64,000 nucleotides of DNA from NCBI RefSeq assembly GCF_019968905.1, contig NZ_CP079946.1, positions 5,084,001 to 5,148,000 of the forward strand, in the 5' to 3' direction. The notes under the pieces were generated by a model that was given only the letters and a program-made list of their open reading frames with translations, ran no database searches and had not been told where the DNA came from. Position numbers and translations under genes: made by a program. Below are positions 33,208 to 42,234 of this stretch, piece after piece; position 1 is the first letter of the stretch; each line of letters opens with the position of its first letter. The DNA is from Corallococcus sp. EGB. GTDB taxonomy: Bacteria > Myxococcota > Myxococcia > Myxococcales > Myxococcaceae.

Positions 33208-34932
33208 ATGAGCGGGATCAGCAAGCTGACGAGTGGTTCGAGGGTGGCGATCGTCGGCGGGGGCATCGCCGGGGCGGGGCTCGCGGCCTCCCTTCTCTTC
33301 AACGGCCGCGCGCGGGGCGTGGCCCTGGACGTGCGCGTCTACGCGGGCGGCACCGAGGAGCGCATCGTGCCCCCTGCCCTGCTCACCCCGGAGTGCCGTT
33401 CACGTCTGGCGGCGCTGGGCTGCCGCATTCCTCCGGAGTGGCGCGCGCATGAGCTGCGCGGCGTGGAGATCATCTCCCAGGGCGAGCGGGAGCTGCTGCC
33501 CTGCGCGGCGGGCGGCCTCTGGGTGGTGGACGGCTGGCCCAAGGGCGAAGGGGGCCTGGACCTGGTGCGCCACGTGCTGTCCACGGCGGCCAGCGCGCAG
33601 GGCGCCCGGTTCGTGAACCGCCACGTGGAGCGCGTGGAGCGGCAGGCGCCGGCTCCGGACGCCCCCGCGGCGGTGCGCAACCAGGGCCCCCTGGTCGTCC
33701 GCGCGCAGGGCAGCGGCGAGCGCTTCCACGCGGTGGCGCTGGCGTCCGGCGCGGGGCCGCTCCTGGGGGACGCGTTCTTCAAGGGCTGCAAGCCGGCGCC
33801 GTCCATGCCGGCGGTGCAGGCGCGGCTGCGGGGCGTGATGCCCGGCCGGGACCTGGCGCCGGTGGCGCGGCTGTGGGTGGCGCCGTTGCCTTCGGTGGAT
33901 GCGCTGTTCCTGATTCCGGGCGCGTCGTCCGTGTACGCGCTGGCTTTCGGCGCGGCGGTGACGCCCGCGGACCTGTGCCAGGTGCTGATGATGGCCGCGC
34001 GCGACGGCATGCTCGAGGAGGGCTTCGAGGTGACGGCGCTGGAGACGACGCGCCTGCCCTTCGGCCCCGGCCGCACGCTGGTGGCGCCCGGGCAGTTGGT
34101 GGTGGGGCCCGCGGCCTTCGGCCACCCGCTGCAGGTGGGCCTGTCGGAGACGCTGGCGTCGTGCAGCCGCGCCGCGGTCGCGCTGCTGGATGGCGGGCTG
34201 GACGCGGCCTCGCTGGAGCGGCGCTACGTGCGCGACGGGCTGGGCGAGCTGATGGAGGACGCGGCGGCGGGAGCGCGCTCCATCGCCTGGCTGCGCCGCG
34301 CGGGCAAGCGGGCCCCGGCGGCGTTCGTCGCGGCGCGGGCGAAGCACTCAGTGGGGGGGGTGTACGGCGGCGGCGTGCTGGGCCTGAGCGGTCCCACTCC
34401 GCTCGGCCTGCTGTCCGCGGCGCGCTGGTCCGGCGTGCGCGAGGTCGTGGGTTCATGGCTGCGCACGCCCATCGAGCCCGTGCCCACGCTGGTGCCGGAG
34501 GTGGAGCCGGATCTGTACTACGTGGTGGACGACGACGCGGACACGCGCGAGGCGCTCACGCTGCTCCTGGAGAGCACCGGCGCGCGCGTGGTGTCCTTCG
34601 CGGACGAGCTGGCGCTGTTCTGCGCGGTGGCGCGCCGTCCGCCCACCGCCATCCTCCTGGACGTCGTGCTGCACTGGGTGGACGGCCTGCGGCTGTGTGA
34701 AGGCCTCAAGCAGCACCCGCTCACCCGCGACACGCGCGTGCTGGTGATGAGCGGCCTCAACCGTCCACACGTGCGTCAGCGCGCGCTCGACGCGGGCGCG
34801 GAGGCCTTCCTGCCCAAGCCGGTGAACCCGGACCGCCTCCTCTGCCAGCTCACCGGCCGCGTGCCGGACCCGCTCGCCGTCATCCGGCCCGCGGTCGTCG
34901 AGACCTTTGGCGAAGACCGCTTTGCGTCCTGA
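33208..34932 (+). CDS. FAD-dependent oxidoreductase fused to a C-terminal receiver domain
   Basis: A 574-residue fusion. The N-terminal part begins with a dinucleotide-binding Rossmann motif, VGGGIAGAGLAAS (residues 16-28), and runs to about 425 with a layout like FAD monooxygenases/geranylgeranyl reductases; the usual C-terminal GD motif is degenerate, reading GPAAFGHPLQVGLSET. Residues about 437-555 are a complete receiver: VVDDDAD acidic pocket, phospho-acceptor Asp485 in ILLDVVLHWVDG, Ser in VMSGLN and Lys537 in LPKPVN. A phosphorylatable switch on a redox enzyme is unusual. It lies 26 nt after a REC-GGDEF gene, so both may answer one kinase. The substrate is unknown. Confidence 0.88.
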   Translation: MSGISKLTSGSRVAIVGGGIAGAGLAASLLFNGRARGVALDVRVYAGGTEERIVPPALLTPECRSRLAALGCRIPPEWRAHELRGVEIISQGERELLPCAAGGLWVVDGWPKGEGGLDLVRHVLSTAASAQGARFVNRHVERVERQAPAPDAPAAVRNQGPLVVRAQGSGERFHAVALASGAGPLLGDAFFKGCKPAPSMPAVQARLRGVMPGRDLAPVARLWVAPLPSVDALFLIPGASSVYALAFGAAVTPADLCQVLMMAARDGMLEEGFEVTALETTRLPFGPGRTLVAPGQLVVGPAAFGHPLQVGLSETLASCSRAAVALLDGGLDAASLERRYVRDGLGELMEDAAAGARSIAWLRRAGKRAPAAFVAARAKHSVGGVYGGGVLGLSGPTPLGLLSAARWSGVREVVGSWLRTPIEPVPTLVPEVEPDLYYVVDDDADTREALTLLLESTGARVVSFADELALFCAVARRPPTAILLDVVLHWVDGLRLCEGLKQHPLTRDTRVLVMSGLNRPHVRQRALDAGAEAFLPKPVNPDRLLCQLTGRVPDPLAVIRPAVVETFGEDRFAS

Positions 34933-36848: not shown

Positions 36849-37700
36849 CTAGAGCCGCGCCGCTTCGGACAGCCGCGCCCGCACCACGTCCGCGGCGCTG
36901 GCATCGCGCGCGAACACGAGCCGCGCGGTCTCCACGTGCGACAGCACGCGCCCGGCCGAGGCCACCAGCGTGCCCCGGCCCGCGGGCGTGGGCTCGGGCA
37001 GCAGGGCGTTCAACAAGAGCACCCGGGCCACCTCCCCCGCGCCCTGCGCCTCCCACCGCGAGGCCCCGGCCCAGCCCAGTGTCCCCACCGCGACGAGCGC
37101 CGCGTCGTCCGCCCGGGCCGGCACGTTCCAGGGCGTCCCCGCCGCCCGCCATCCGCCACCCTCCCCGGGCCACACCGCCACCAGCTCATCCGCGAGCACC
37201 GCCCCACCCGCCTCGCGCCACAGCCCGCCCAGGGTGCTCTTGCCCGCGCCGGAGTGCCCCACGAACAGCGCGGCCCGGCCCTCGTGCACCAGCCCCACCC
37301 CGTGGACGAGCAACCCACCGCGCTTCGCCAGCGCGGACGCGAGCATCACCTTGATCACGTTCTCCACCGGGTAGCGCCCGGACCCGATGACGTCCGCCCG
37401 GCTCCGGTCTGGCGAGAGCACCGCGGAGTACTCCGCGCCGCCGTCCACGCGCAGCGTCCCGGAGTCACCGGGTTCCAGCCGCGGCAGCTCCTGCAGGGTG
37501 GGCGGAGCGCGCGGGCCGGGAGGGCTGCGCATCACCAGCCGGGCATCGGGAGCCACGGCATCGGGCGCGAGGTACGCGCCGAACACGCGCTGGAGCGGAC
37601 CGGCGAGCGCCGCGTCCTCCACTTCGAGCGCCACGGTCCACCCGGCCAGGGTGATCCGGAGCGCACCGCCACGGGGACCCGGCGAGGGGTCCCCCTCCAT
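36849..37700 (-). CDS. HPr-kinase-like protein (HprK-related kinase)
   Basis: A 283-residue P-loop protein related to HPr kinase C-terminal domains. The Walker A is GHSGAGKST at residues 148-156, preceded by HGVGLVHEGRAALFV and followed by the acidic pair in LADELVAVWP, which stands in for the HprK Asp pair. The first ~120 residues are a family-specific beta-rich region. No HPr protein gene is present. Relatives of this kind phosphorylate ribosomally made peptides (lasso-peptide kinases) or belong to PqqD-linked systems of unknown function. The ATG overlaps the stop of the 51-residue peptide gene by one base (TGATG), so the two are coupled. PqqD and S26-peptidase genes lie in the same run. 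Confidence 0.8.
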   Translation of the reverse strand: MEGDPSPGPRGGALRITLAGWTVALEVEDAALAGPLQRVFGAYLAPDAVAPDARLVMRSPPGPRAPPTLQELPRLEPGDSGTLRVDGGAEYSAVLSPDRSRADVIGSGRYPVENVIKVMLASALAKRGGLLVHGVGLVHEGRAALFVGHSGAGKSTLGGLWREAGGAVLADELVAVWPGEGGGWRAAGTPWNVPARADDAALVAVGTLGWAGASRWEAQGAGEVARVLLLNALLPEPTPAGRGTLVASAGRVLSHVETARLVFARDASAADVVRARLSEAARL

Positions 37701-37855
37701 CACGGCACGCACTCCGATTCGCCGGGGATGTTGCAGATGGACAGCTGCGCCAGCGCGACGAACGGCTGCTCCCACAGGATGGCGGGAGGCACGTACACGG
37801 CAGGCGGCTTCGGCACGGTGGGACCCGCGGGAGGCTGTGAAGGTCGTTGGCTCAC
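37700..37855 (-). CDS. 51-residue peptide, candidate modified-peptide precursor
   Basis: A small gene starting with GTG at 37853-37855, with AGGTGG eight bases upstream, and ending TGA at 37700-37702, the last base of which is the first of the HPr-kinase-like ATG. The 51 residues are Pro-rich (10 Pro). A segment PPAVYVPPAILWEQPF at residues 17-32 has the Tyr-x-Pro-Pro-x-hydrophobic-Leu pattern seen in leaders bound by PqqD-type recognition domains. It ends in a short segment with two Cys (41 and 49), SICNIPGESECVP. No signal peptide. It has no homologue that I can name. Role as substrate of the neighbouring kinase and PqqD-like protein is inferred from position and shape. Confidence 0.65.
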   Translation of the reverse strand: MSQRPSQPPAGPTVPKPPAVYVPPAILWEQPFVALAQLSICNIPGESECVP

Positions 37856-37867
37856 GTGAAGGCCCAC

Positions 37868-40800
37868 CTAGAAGGGCACCGGGAAGGCACAGATTCGACC
37901 ATCCGCGGTACCAACATGCAACCGGCCAACGGTGTGATCGACGGTGGGCACGCCCATGATCTGCGCCGGTCCCACGGTCACCTGCCCGGTCTCCAGGCCG
38001 TTGTTCAGCAGCTCCAACTGGTGGATCTTCCCATCCGCGCTGCCGACATAGACGCGCGGCACACCGTTCACGTTGAGGGTGAAGGGGCCGGACGGCTTCA
38101 CGATGTTCGCCGTCCAGACGAGCTCCGGCCGGGTGCCCCCCTCCTTGAACTCATAGTGCTCCACGGTGTTGTTCGTACGGCTCACCACGAAGCCGCGCCC
38201 CTGGGGCCGCGCAAAGAAGGCGAAGGTCCGCTGCGAGGCGCCCGCCACCTGGACGGTCCACGCAATCGCGTAGGTGGACGGATTCAAGCCGTACACCTTG
38301 CCGTCGTTGGCGGTGACCAGGATCTGGTTGCTCGTGGCATTGCGGACCACGCCAAACTCCAGGTCGCCCAGCGACAGCCGCGCCACCTCCGCGCCCGTGA
38401 GGCTGTTGAGCACGCGCAGCGTGGCCGTGCTCGTCCCCGCCGTCGTCGGCACGTAGAGCCGGTTCGTCGTGTAGTCCACCAGCATGCCGCCGCTCACCAT
38501 GCCCAGGTCCCCGGGCCGGTAGCGCCAGATGAGCGCGCCCGTGGCCGCGTTCAGCGCGACCACCTGGTTCTGCGCGGACGCGTTGCGCGTGGCGAAGATG
38601 GCCAGGTCCACGTTGGAGTACTTCGTCCGGTACTCCGGGTTCGCGTAGTCGAGCAGCTGCGTCACGGGGAACGAGCTGATGTTCCCCAGCCCCAGCGTGG
38701 TGTTCTTCCACAGGAGGTCGCCCGTGGCCGCGTTGATCACCGCCGGCACGCCGGCCTGATCACCCACGACGATCCACTGCTGCCCGGGCCGGCCCAGCAG
38801 AGGCACCACCGGGAAGCGGGTGCCGATCTTCGCCGACAGCTTCACCGGCCGGAAGCGCTCGGCGCCGTCCGCGGAGGGGTTCACGCTGTTCGTGAGCACC
38901 CCCACCAACGAGTCGTTGAACGAGCCGAAGATGCCAACGCCCAGCTCGGTGACGGGCTGCTGCGCCGCCTCCAACCCCACCGAGTAGCACCACAGCGGGT
39001 TGCCCGCCACGCGCGCCCGGGGCGTGACCACCAGGCCCACCGACGTGGGCTGGTTGCCCGGCCCGTACCGCAGCTCGTCGTCCGCGTTGAACACGCGGTA
39101 GTAGTACGTCGTGCCGTTCGTCACCGCCGTGTCGGTCATGGACGACGCGGAGCTGAACTCGTCCACGGAGACCACCGTCGCGTTGCCCAGCACGTCTCCC
39201 ACCGCGTAGCGCATGCCGCTGGTGGGCGCGATGGTGGGCGTCGCCCCCACGGAGCGCAGCACCAGGGTGCCGCCGTGGTTGAAGGGGTTGTCCCACGTGA
39301 GCGTCACGCTGCCGTCGCGGGCCACGCCGGTGAGGCGCGCCACGTCCGGGGACGTGGTCACCGCGAGCAGCGTCATGGTCGCTTCCACGCGAATGCGCGG
39401 GTCGTTCCAGCCCTGGTTCAGCTCCAGCCGGTGACGGAACGGCGTGTCCGCGGTGACGGCGGAGAAGCCTGAATAGGTGATGCGGAAGGTGGCCTCGCCG
39501 CCCACCGGGATGCCGGAGTCCGACTCCCAGGTGTAGCCGGCCGCGTCCGTGGAGACGACCCAGTCCCCGAACGCCTGCGGCCCCGACGCCGCCACGGCGA
39601 AGTAGTTCACCGCGGGCTTGAACAGCGTCACCATGTAGATGGGCAGCGCGCCGCGGTTCTGCACCGTGTACGCCACCGTCACGCCCGTGGCCGCCGTGGA
39701 CACCGACTCCTGGCTCAGCCGCACACGGTGCTCCACGATGCGGCCCTTGCGCGCCGTGACGGCATCCCCCGCCACCGCCGAACCATTGAGCGTCCCATCC
39801 ACCTGCGCCTGGAACTGGTAGCTGGCGCCGGGCGTGCCCGACACCTGATAGCGCCAGGTGAACTGCGCGGAGGCCCCTGGCGCCAGCTGCGCCACGCTGT
39901 CCGGCGACGGCCCGGACACGAGCGTCGCCGTTGCCCGGCCCAGCAGCACCGGCGCGCGCGGACGCACCTGGGTGTACGTGTTCGTGCTGGAGGTGTTGAA
40001 CACGGTGAGGCGCAGCGTCACCTGATCGCCAGCGAACGCATCCACGATGTCCATGTCCGCCGCAGCCACCAGGGTGCCCACGTCCGCCATGGGCGAGTCC
40101 GCCAGCGGAGCGTTCGCGCTCGTCGCGCGCGCCCGGACGCGAGCGGCCCCGGCGCCGGCGGCGGTGGCCCGCAGATTGACCGCGACGACGCCCGCGGCCC
40201 GGGCCGCCACGGACACGTTGGTCGAGGGGACCTTGCTCACGGTGGTGAGCGGCGCACCGCTCGTCGAGGTGGGATTGTCCACGGTCACGGAGGCCGTGCC
40301 CGTGCCGCGGTTCTCCACCACCACGCGCACCGCGGTGGTGTCGTTGACCGCCAGCACGCGCGGCGCCAGCGTCACGTTCGTGGCCAGGATGGCCCGCGTC
40401 CACGCGGTCATGTTGTTGATGTTGTAGTTGTAGCTCGTGCCGTCACACTGGTCTCGGGCGTACGTGCCCGCCACGAGGCGCTCGGTGGTGTTGTCGGTGG
40501 AGCGGTTCGCCGGGGCCACCACGTTCAGCACGAAGCGCGCGGACTCATTGCGAGCCAGCCCGCGCCCGTTGTCCACGCAGCCTTTCGTGGACTGGAAGGT
40601 GATGCGCCGCTCGTTGGAGTCGATGTACTCGATCTTCCAGTTCGGGTTCTCGTCCGCCGGCAGGCCGCCCAGCAATTGGTAGCCCGTCGGCAGGACGAAG
40701 GACACCTCCGAGAGGCGGGCGTTGTTCGTGGCCGCGGTCGTGTTCGTCACCTCCACGACGAGCTCGGACGCGTCGTCCATCACCACGCGCGCGACGGTGT

Positions 40801-40894
40801 CTCCGGCGGCGGGGACGGGGCGCACGGTCCAGGTCTGGGAGAAGCCCACCGCGGGCAGCAGCGCCGCGAGGAGCGCGAGGATGCGGACGTTCAT
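37868..40894 (-). CDS. large secreted protein: beta-rich repeats, FnIII and PQQ-type propeller
   Basis: A 1008-residue exported protein. The signal peptide (1-19) ends at AVGFSQ. Residues about 25-500 are beta-rich with Asn/Thr/Ala-rich repeats resembling conserved-repeat (DUF11/CARDB-like) domains; several NTT/STSS runs are seen. An FnIII-like domain spans about 510-625 (VTLTWDNP ... TYYYRVFNADDE). The C-terminal third (about 640-1008) has recurring blade motifs ATGDLLWKN, ATGALIWRY, YAIAWTVQV, ELVWTANIV, typical of a PQQ-like beta-propeller, ending GRICAFPVPF. No membrane anchor. The ATG at 40892-40894 with GAGG six bases upstream is chosen over a GTG four codons earlier. It lies 13 nt after the Pro-Glu lipoprotein and 12 nt before the 51-residue peptide. 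Confidence 0.85.
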   Translation of the reverse strand: MNVRILALLAALLPAVGFSQTWTVRPVPAAGDTVARVVMDDASELVVEVTNTTAATNNARLSEVSFVLPTGYQLLGGLPADENPNWKIEYIDSNERRITFQSTKGCVDNGRGLARNESARFVLNVVAPANRSTDNTTERLVAGTYARDQCDGTSYNYNINNMTAWTRAILATNVTLAPRVLAVNDTTAVRVVVENRGTGTASVTVDNPTSTSGAPLTTVSKVPSTNVSVAARAAGVVAVNLRATAAGAGAARVRARATSANAPLADSPMADVGTLVAAADMDIVDAFAGDQVTLRLTVFNTSSTNTYTQVRPRAPVLLGRATATLVSGPSPDSVAQLAPGASAQFTWRYQVSGTPGASYQFQAQVDGTLNGSAVAGDAVTARKGRIVEHRVRLSQESVSTAATGVTVAYTVQNRGALPIYMVTLFKPAVNYFAVAASGPQAFGDWVVSTDAAGYTWESDSGIPVGGEATFRITYSGFSAVTADTPFRHRLELNQGWNDPRIRVEATMTLLAVTTSPDVARLTGVARDGSVTLTWDNPFNHGGTLVLRSVGATPTIAPTSGMRYAVGDVLGNATVVSVDEFSSASSMTDTAVTNGTTYYYRVFNADDELRYGPGNQPTSVGLVVTPRARVAGNPLWCYSVGLEAAQQPVTELGVGIFGSFNDSLVGVLTNSVNPSADGAERFRPVKLSAKIGTRFPVVPLLGRPGQQWIVVGDQAGVPAVINAATGDLLWKNTTLGLGNISSFPVTQLLDYANPEYRTKYSNVDLAIFATRNASAQNQVVALNAATGALIWRYRPGDLGMVSGGMLVDYTTNRLYVPTTAGTSTATLRVLNSLTGAEVARLSLGDLEFGVVRNATSNQILVTANDGKVYGLNPSTYAIAWTVQVAGASQRTFAFFARPQGRGFVVSRTNNTVEHYEFKEGGTRPELVWTANIVKPSGPFTLNVNGVPRVYVGSADGKIHQLELLNNGLETGQVTVGPAQIMGVPTVDHTVGRLHVGTADGRICAFPVPF

Positions 40895-40907
40895 GGCGGG
40901 CCTCACG

Positions 40908-41516
40908 TCACGGCTCCAGGGTGAAGGACGTGGTGGCCAGCTGGGCCCCGTCCAGGAAGAAGCGCACCTGCCAGGTGCCCGTCATGCGTGACATGGACAC
41001 GGACGTGCCCGCCACCGGCAGCGAATAGCGCAGCGTGCGCGTCTCCTCCGGCGGCGCCTCCACCGTCGCGCTCCGCTTCTCGTACGGGCTCCCGCCCGGC
41101 GCGATGAACTCCACGTCCACCAGGCCCTTGTTCCGCACGCCGCTCACCACGAAGTCCACGTCCACCTGCAGCACCTCGGACAGCGGCGCGGGCTCCGAAC
41201 CCGCGCCCACCACCGCCGCGCTCCCAGCAGGGGGCGGCAGCGCCACCGGTGGCGGCTCCTCCTCCGGCGGCGGCTCTTCGGGAGGCGGCTCTTCCGGCGG
41301 TGGCTCCTGCGGAGGCGGCTGCTCCACCACGGGCGCCGGGGGCGGCGGCCGGGCCACGCTCCCGCCGCCGGCCAGCACGTCCGTCGGCTCCACGGGGGGG
41401 ACGGAGCCCGTCCCCGGCCCTGGCTTCAGGGTCGGCGGCGGCAGGGGGGACACCCCTTCCGAGCACGCCGACAGCACCATCGCACCCGCCATCACGGCCA
41501 CGAGCGCCCGCATCAT
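40908..41516 (-). CDS. lipoprotein with Pro/Glu repeat stalk
   Basis: A 202-residue lipoprotein. The signal peptide ends in a lipobox with Cys18 (VLSAC). Residues about 55-92 consist of repeats of the type EEPPP and QEPPP, an extended polyproline-rich stalk. The C-terminal ~100 residues are a compact beta-rich domain (LQVDVDFVVSGVRNKG, TLRYSLPVAGTSVSMSRM, TWQVRFFLDGAQLATTSFTLEP), probably immunoglobulin-like. The ATG overlaps the PqqD stop by four bases, tying this envelope protein to the peptide-handling genes. It could present or anchor the large secreted protein encoded next. Confidence 0.85.
   Translation of the reverse strand: MMRALVAVMAGAMVLSACSEGVSPLPPPTLKPGPGTGSVPPVEPTDVLAGGGSVARPPPPAPVVEQPPPQEPPPEEPPPEEPPPEEEPPPVALPPPAGSAAVVGAGSEPAPLSEVLQVDVDFVVSGVRNKGLVDVEFIAPGGSPYEKRSATVEAPPEETRTLRYSLPVAGTSVSMSRMTGTWQVRFFLDGAQLATTSFTLEP
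41250..41326 (-). repeat. 15-nt tandem repeat encoding EEPPP units
   Basis: Imperfect repeats of about 15 nt within the lipoprotein gene encode alternating Pro triplets and Glu/Gln pairs. Such repeats can change number by slippage, which would alter stalk length. About five copies are visible. Confidence 0.7.
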
Positions 41517-41827
41517 GAGTCCTCCAGCGGCGCGGCACCGGCCGGCGCGCGCACTTCGTCCAACAGACCCTTCCGCTGAAGCTCCCCCAGGAAGCGCAGC
41601 GTGTCGGTCAGCACCGGACCGACGTCGGTCGAAAACTCGGAAGCCACCTGCTCCGCCACCGCCCGGGCCGAGCGCCGTCCGTCGCACAGCGCCCAGATGC
41701 GCGCCGCCGTCGGGTTGAGCCCGCGCAGCGTGCGCCCCTCCGCGTCCAGCACCAGGAAGTCCGCGCCGAAGCCCTCCCCCGAGGTCCCCACACGCCGCCT
41801 GGGCACGCTGTCCGCCGGAAAGCTCAT
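41513..41827 (-). CDS. PqqD-family peptide chaperone
   Basis: A 104-residue protein of the PqqD fold, the RiPP precursor recognition element that delivers peptides to modifying enzymes. The pattern is complete: LDAEGRTLRGLNPTAARIWALCDGRRS, AVAEQVASEF and DTLRFLGELQRKGLLD. The first ~20 residues are a charged tail and the last ~15 an Ala/Pro tail. ATG at 41825-41827 overlaps the TGA of the S26-type gene (ATGA), and its own stop overlaps the lipoprotein ATG (ATGA), so three proteins are translationally linked. No PQQ biosynthesis genes are near, so this is not PQQ synthesis. The 51-residue peptide is the best candidate client. Confidence 0.88.
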   Translation of the reverse strand: MSFPADSVPRRRVGTSGEGFGADFLVLDAEGRTLRGLNPTAARIWALCDGRRSARAVAEQVASEFSTDVGPVLTDTLRFLGELQRKGLLDEVRAPAGAAPLEDS

Positions 41828-42234
41828 GCGCGGCCCGCCCTCCCCAGCCACGCGGCCACCTGGCGCTTCAGCGTCGCGCGCCAGCGGCCCAGCCTCCGCG
41901 GCCCCACGTCCCAGCAGTCCATCTCCAGCAGCGCCCCGCCCCGGCGCACACGCCGCGCACGCCCCAGGATACGAACGAGCGGCAGCGGCGGATCTTCGGC
42001 GCCGCCGTTGTCCCCACGCAGCGCGCAGACCTGCCCGTCACACCAACGCACCCGGTGCAGCACCAGCGAGGAGTCGAAGCGCGCCAGCACCACCTCGCCC
42101 GGGCGCGGCGGCTCCATCAGCGGCTCCACCTCCGCCACGTCCCCCGCGCGCAACGACGGCCACATGCTGTCCCCGGCCACGGGGATCCAGCGGAGGCCTT
42201 CGATCACGGAGCCGGGTTGGGGAGCGCTCGCCAT
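41824..42234 (-). CDS. S26/S24-type serine peptidase without membrane anchor
   Basis: A 136-residue peptidase-like protein. The Ser23 active-site box is VAGDSMWPSLRAGD; the second box VLHRVRWCDG has His60 where bacterial leader peptidases use Lys, and LRGDNGG closes the fold. This is the Ser-His form of the S26B/SipW type. Unlike most signal peptidases there is no obvious membrane helix, so it may act in the cytoplasm or be an S24 relative. The ATG at 42232-42234 has no Shine-Dalgarno; a weak -10-like TACATT ends nine bases before it, so the mRNA may be leaderless. A TTG start at 42288 is possible but poorly spaced. It heads the peptide cassette. Confidence 0.78.
   Translation of the reverse strand: MASAPQPGSVIEGLRWIPVAGDSMWPSLRAGDVAEVEPLMEPPRPGEVVLARFDSSLVLHRVRWCDGQVCALRGDNGGAEDPPLPLVRILGRARRVRRGGALLEMDCWDVGPRRLGRWRATLKRQVAAWLGRAGRA

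Follow-up and report, generated by a model that had tools for sequence, protein, structure and literature searches.

We describe a six-gene cassette of Corallococcus (Myxococcota) that is likely to make a processed phosphopeptide, the core of which would act with an exported propeller protein and a lipoprotein in the cell envelope. The reading is favored by a four-part machinery and a residue register that are the same as those of "linear polyphosphorylated peptides" (LPP), which Popov et al. described from Bacillota in May 2026 (PMC13381572). The new part is the pairing of the peptide with the propeller. Beyond what an earlier note on this DNA had proposed, the analysis adds the register of the serine at core position 3, an AxA cleavage site, vertical inheritance, and the persistence of the propeller-peptide pair where the enzymes are encoded elsewhere.

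Organization and conservation of the cassette

Six minus-strand open reading frames (ORFs) were confirmed between positions 36849 and 42234 of the window, the 64,000-nucleotide stretch of DNA that was analyzed. The first encodes a 136-residue S26/S24-fold serine peptidase, a predicted leader peptidase (41824–42234; Peptidase_S24, E 4e-8). It is followed by a 104-residue PqqD-fold discrete RRE (41513–41827), a 202-residue Pro/Glu-rich lipoprotein (40908–41516), an exported 1008-residue Ig/BamB-like propeller protein (37868–40894), a putative precursor peptide of 51 residues with a GTG start (37700–37855), and a 283-residue HprK-like kinase (36849–37700). The junctions are overlaps of 4, 4 and 1 nt and gaps of 13 and 12 nt; re-reading the ORFs reproduced the gene number, strand and spacing of the earlier note in full. 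The cassette is flanked by hisS and miaA. A separate gene at 33208–34932 encodes a protein whose C-terminal domain is a response-regulator receiver and whose N-terminus, by eye, has a dinucleotide-binding GGGIAGAG motif; this protein is conserved and lies near miaA in relatives too.

All 16 genomes searched in the window's genus have a close relative of the kinase, as do several sister genera. The six-gene order, including the 51-residue ORF, recurs in genera g1, g3, g5, g19 and g20 (loci L033–L038, L042–L054 and L059–L061 were read), and in nearly every case hisS lies immediately upstream and miaA follows downstream; miaA is further off or beyond the stretch at three g3 loci and is the only one of the two visible at L051. 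The g9 locus L056 retains hisS, PqqD, lipoprotein, propeller, peptide, kinase and miaA, and no S26 match was found there. Distances among the kinase, propeller, PqqD and S26 proteins track those of hisS, with Mantel r of 0.83–0.89 and a p of 0.002 that is the smallest attainable with 500 permutations. This parallel divergence, together with the one fixed hisS-miaA locus, indicates that the cassette descended vertically in Myxococcota. A chance grouping is unlikely, given the same gene order in sister genera and the amino-acid constraint on the peptide (see below); relatives of the genes do co-occur in other genomes.

The precursor peptide

The peptide consists of a variable, often Pro-rich N-terminal part followed by the pattern YxxPAILWEQPFVALA/QxSxCxIPGESECxP, in which the slash marks the predicted cleavage site. 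The predicted RRE-binding leader end, YVPPAILWEQPFVALA (Tyr21–Ala36; 37748–37795, minus strand), carries a YxxPxI motif and an AxA end. The predicted core, QLSICNIPGESECVP (Gln37–Pro51; 37703–37747, minus strand), contains Cys41, Cys49 and a predicted phosphosite, Ser39, at core position 3. In an alignment of 25 peptides, the phylogenetic independence of which is limited, the Tyr, a Pro at +3 and a Trp at +7 are invariant. Position +13 is Ala, Pro or Gly and position +15 is Ala, Thr or Gly in all 25, and these small residues fit the -3/-1 rule of signal peptidases; ALA/Q constitutes an AxA site exactly where cleavage is predicted from the LPP register. Position +18 is Ser in 22 peptides, Thr in two (L058 and L075) and Val in one (L056), and Ser or Thr is retained in L058, L074 and L075 despite their otherwise divergent cores. 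Among the 16 sequences with equal core length, the mean frequency of the major residue is 0.41 for the 12 positions before the Tyr, 0.93 for the leader end and 0.83 for the core.

Codon analysis gave pN/pS values of 0.37–0.39 in frame, compared to 1.6 and 3.1 in the two other frames, and a strong match to the peptide profile was found in 56 of 195 Myxococcota genomes. This frame-specific constraint, the profile matches and the conservation across relatives rule out a chance short ORF, and we conclude that the ORF is a real, conserved gene, as the reading of the earlier note required. The peptide has no Pfam match, and neither it nor its 24 relatives match NCBIfam, which speaks against an already known peptide family.

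RRE, peptidase and kinase

The PqqD-fold protein (Pfam PqqD, E 2e-14) is the sole PF05402 protein detected in a search of the genome. It matches TbiB1 and 9x8z_B, and its profile scores the former above the latter. Asp75, invariant in 19 sequences, aligns with an Asp of 9x8z_B. We infer that 9x8z_B is LppB, since a single offset places E11, L22, L29, K31 and D70 each on the expected residue; Asp75 would then be the counterpart of LppB Asp70, the residue in contact with the Tyr of the leader (PMC13381572).

The nearest NCBIfam models of the peptidase are those of Ni-SOD protease and archaeal-type signal peptidase I, and its nearest solved relatives are SEC11A and LexA, with weak matches. Residues S23, H60, D75 and D81 are invariant in 17 sequences, and the predicted catalytic set is Ser23, His60 and Asp81 (or Asp75). 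By eye, no obvious membrane segment is present in the 136 residues, and the enzyme is apparently cytoplasmic.

The kinase matches the HprK-related kinase A and B models weakly (E 6e-4 and 2e-4). Its AlphaFold2 model (pLDDT 93) has PEPCK and HprK/P as best PDB matches, with a probability of 1.00, and the predicted structure confirms an HprK-like fold. The motifs comprise His133, a P-loop with Lys154/Ser155, Asp171-Glu172 and GTPW; H133, K154, S155 and D171 are invariant and align with the catalytic residues of HprK. It is the only close HprK-like match in the genome.

The propeller protein and its pairing with the peptide

The lipoprotein has a lipobox (LSAC, by eye) and a conserved C-terminal domain, and gave no family match. 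The 1008-residue protein consists of N-terminal β/Ig-like domains, an Fn3-like domain and a C-terminal BamB-like β-propeller (approximately residues 635–1008; PQQ_2/BamB, E 1e-6 to 2e-9). Its AlphaFold2 model has a pLDDT of 83, and Foldseek matched BamB (3q54) and others with a TM-score by target of about 0.7. The PQQ_2 match suggested a PQQ-type cofactor, which we rejected as the cassette has no radical SAM enzyme, its PqqD protein scores below the cut-off (see below) and the best structural match is BamB. At L061 (6800–9824; Corallococcus genome G087), the propeller gene is split into three frames by sequencing error or real frameshifts, with the remaining cassette intact.

The propeller profile is present in 62 of the 195 Myxococcota genomes. 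The type-1 peptide, detected at E <1e-10 in 55 of these, adjoins the propeller except in G108 and G109; in G109 the S26, PqqD and peptide genes lie together without the propeller (L090). The remaining seven genomes (G067, G070, G071, G154, G165, G166 and G167) have, next to the propeller, a gene for a [Y/W]xxPx[IV] peptide whose core contains Cys. Such a peptide is thus encoded in all 62 propeller genomes and is next to the propeller in 60. In G165–G167 (families f18/f19), the propeller, a small secreted protein and the peptide lie together while the kinase and S26 peptidase are encoded on contigs other than that of the trio. In the two genomes that were fully read, a radical SAM/SPASM gene separates these two enzymes; the peptide core of G166 and G167 retains [FW]GES..C. 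Of all the observations, this pairing, which persists when the enzymes are encoded at another place, points most strongly to peptide and propeller functioning together. Judged by gene adjacency, not binding, the propeller is probably the peptide's partner. The lipoprotein and propeller had both been put forward earlier as partners; the part borne out is the association of peptide and propeller.

At four loci (L082, 2478–2729; L083, 4751–4990; L084, 4896–5216; L095, 1483–1776), a Cys-rich peptide follows the propeller, with LLC[ST][ST]G..., a CC pair and, in the leader, a WxxPx[VI] motif.

Related cassettes

A second cassette type occurs in other genera (L062, 5028–13124; also L063–L066, L068–L071 and L079), and some genomes have both types. 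It encodes PqqD, a giant FG-GAP/Ig exported protein of about 1950 residues, a YxxPx[VIL] peptide with a mostly Cys-containing core, an HprK-like kinase, and a fusion of an S26-type peptidase with a GNAT acetyltransferase. In distant Myxococcota families (L102, 5779–8098; L104, 6715–9124; L103), the gene order is HprK-like kinase, radical SAM/SPASM enzyme, S26 peptidase; at L075 (9855–12158) PqqD takes the third place. Three further HprK-associated YxxP peptides (L067, 1691–1894; L072, 9441–9638; L076, 15–203) have a CK-type core, with Ser at Tyr+18 in one of the three.

Proposed mechanism

We propose that the PqqD-fold RRE would bind the YxxPAIL segment of the 51-residue precursor, that the HprK-like kinase would phosphorylate the Ser/Thr at Tyr+18 (Ser39, core position 3), and that the S26-type Ser-His-Asp peptidase would cut after Ala36 (VALA/QxS). 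Cleavage would release a 15-residue core, QxSxCxIPGESECxP, that may then act with the exported propeller and the lipoprotein in the cell envelope, a step to which the gene pairing alone points. We infer binding, phosphorylation and cleavage by homology: the chemistry that the earlier note had assigned to the three proteins is that demonstrated for LPP, and the leader motif, phosphosite register and catalytic residues match. The proposal is further favored by the Ser or Thr that all but one of the 25 peptides have at +18, the AxA site, the invariant RRE Asp75, the invariant peptidase and kinase residues, the lack of any other PqqD-family protein or close HprK-like match in the genome, and the 60 of 62 propeller genomes, f18/f19 included, in which the peptide adjoins the propeller. 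It is weakened by the Thr at +18 in L058 and L075, given that Thr was not phosphorylated in the single LPP that was tested (PMC13381572), by L056, which has neither Ser nor Thr there, and by the HprK-associated peptides of L072 and L076, which have Gly. Further points against it are that the peptide lacks a signal although its partners are exported, that the cassette has neither exporter nor nucleotidyltransferase, and that propeller and peptide are apart in G108 and G109. A bolder extension, which we advance tentatively, is that of a domesticated RiPP, whose phosphorylated, trimmed 15-residue core would serve the exported BamB-like propeller and the lipoprotein as a permanent ligand, tether or switch in the myxobacterial envelope, with a housekeeping role and not that of a secreted natural product.

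Four other explanations were weighed, all of them unlikely. The one that survives best is that the peptide is bound and cut, while the HprK-like protein either acts on a different molecule or sets up an additional modification carried out by an enzyme from another locus. Consistent with it are the distant relatives L075, L102 and L104, in which the kinase is paired with a radical SAM/SPASM enzyme, and the NTP_transf_5 proteins elsewhere in the genome, but the six-gene cassette has no radical SAM enzyme and its kinase residues are intact. Slightly less probable is that the peptide is not a RiPP product and is instead a small subunit or chaperone of an envelope propeller complex that retains the RRE-binding motif. 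Its core is conserved like a protein interface, and the f18/f19 trio of propeller, small secreted protein and peptide has no adjacent enzymes; yet those genomes still encode the kinase and peptidase elsewhere, and the AxA site and Ser register also argue against a subunit. We give little credence to the S26 protein being a dedicated signal peptidase for the lipoprotein or propeller, with peptide, kinase and PqqD acting separately. Although its gene heads an operon with two exported proteins, the apparent lack of a membrane segment speaks against such a role, and lipoproteins are processed by their own signal peptidase; moreover, the S26 gene stays near the kinase and away from the propeller in f18/f19, and with PqqD and peptide in the absence of the propeller in G109. 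An exported signalling or antagonistic peptide of the ordinary RiPP type, for which the RRE, peptidase and small Cys-containing core could speak, is equally improbable in view of the conserved core, the single fixed locus and vertical descent (compared to the patchy LPP clusters), and a cassette with neither exporter nor immunity gene.

Comparison with known systems

A search of one literature library found no prior description of the cassette in myxobacteria, which is weak evidence of absence. PQQ biosynthesis was rejected, as the PqqD protein scores 30.5 bits with TIGR03859 (cut-off 46). HPr-rel-A (TIGR04352/TIGR04353) and SynChlorMet (ScmC/ScmD) of NCBIfam also pair an HprK-related protein with a PqqD relative; however, the cassette scores far below their curated cut-offs, with 18.9 bits for TIGR04352 (cut-off 200), 17.5 bits for TIGR04353 (cut-off 35), and 13.4 and 19.4 bits for ScmC and ScmD (cut-offs 125 and 100), and no radical SAM ScmE/F is among the six genes. 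BamB/PQQ_2 propellers have the same fold as the C-terminal part of the large protein, which differs in being fused to Ig/Fn3-like domains, with other BAM genes not nearby and no evidence of PQQ binding.

Phosphorylated lasso peptides of the paeninodin type share with the cassette an HprK-like kinase and a discrete RRE, but have a WxxP leader instead of YxxP. Both the Asn-synthase-like macrolactam cyclase and the transglutaminase-like B2 protease are absent from the cassette and its near flanks, and the borderline PF13471 matches in the genome all lie elsewhere. A lasso cluster was therefore rejected, as the earlier note had also reasoned from the lack of a cyclase. A proteobacterial HprK-like locus (L041) with an asparagine-synthase-like gene beside it (by eye) looks lasso-type and was left out.

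LPP is the counterpart of the cassette in Bacillota. Its precursors have the pattern YxxPxVLxHQxIxFETxxS, and its parts are the RRE LppB, the kinase LppK, the peptidase LppS (S29, H68, D93), the exporter LppD, and LppN; LppK adds several phosphates to core Ser3, and LppS cleaves after T-1 only with LppB (PMC13381572). Its clusters are patchily distributed, and the system was reported as restricted to Bacillota, with its role unknown (PMC13381572). The cassette has the same kinds of components: a YxxPx[VI] leader with Ser (22) or Thr (2) at Tyr+18 in the 25 peptides, a discrete RRE with a putative leader-contacting Asp (D75, through 9x8z_B as LppB), an HprK-like kinase by predicted fold and residues, and an SpI-like peptidase with invariant Ser, His and Asp. 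The leaders share YxxPx[VI]L..Q.[IF], and both systems have the cut after Tyr+15 (+15/+16) and Ser at Tyr+18, a register match that, taken alone, is modest statistical evidence. LPP has FET before the cut where the cassette has ALA, although L058 and L074 have Thr at -1 like LPP. Furthermore, LPP has an MsbA-like exporter and an NTP transferase, neither of which lies between hisS and miaA; in their place the cassette carries the lipoprotein and the BamB-like propeller. At another locus the same genome encodes two adjacent NTP_transf_5 proteins (L106 and L107; G000:C1:1157918-1159765), possibly of the LPP-cluster nucleotidyltransferase kind. We regard the cassette as apparently LPP-like in mechanism and do not assign it as an LPP member. 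Machinery matching LPP is now found in Myxococcota, in culturable genera, where, in contrast to the patchy clusters of Bacillota, it is vertically inherited at a single locus, keeps its peptide core conserved and has a constant exported partner. The purpose of HprK/PqqD peptides becomes a direct question, namely whether a phosphopeptide acts on the propeller protein, and the findings suggest a conserved role in the envelope for which RiPP enzymes can be used.
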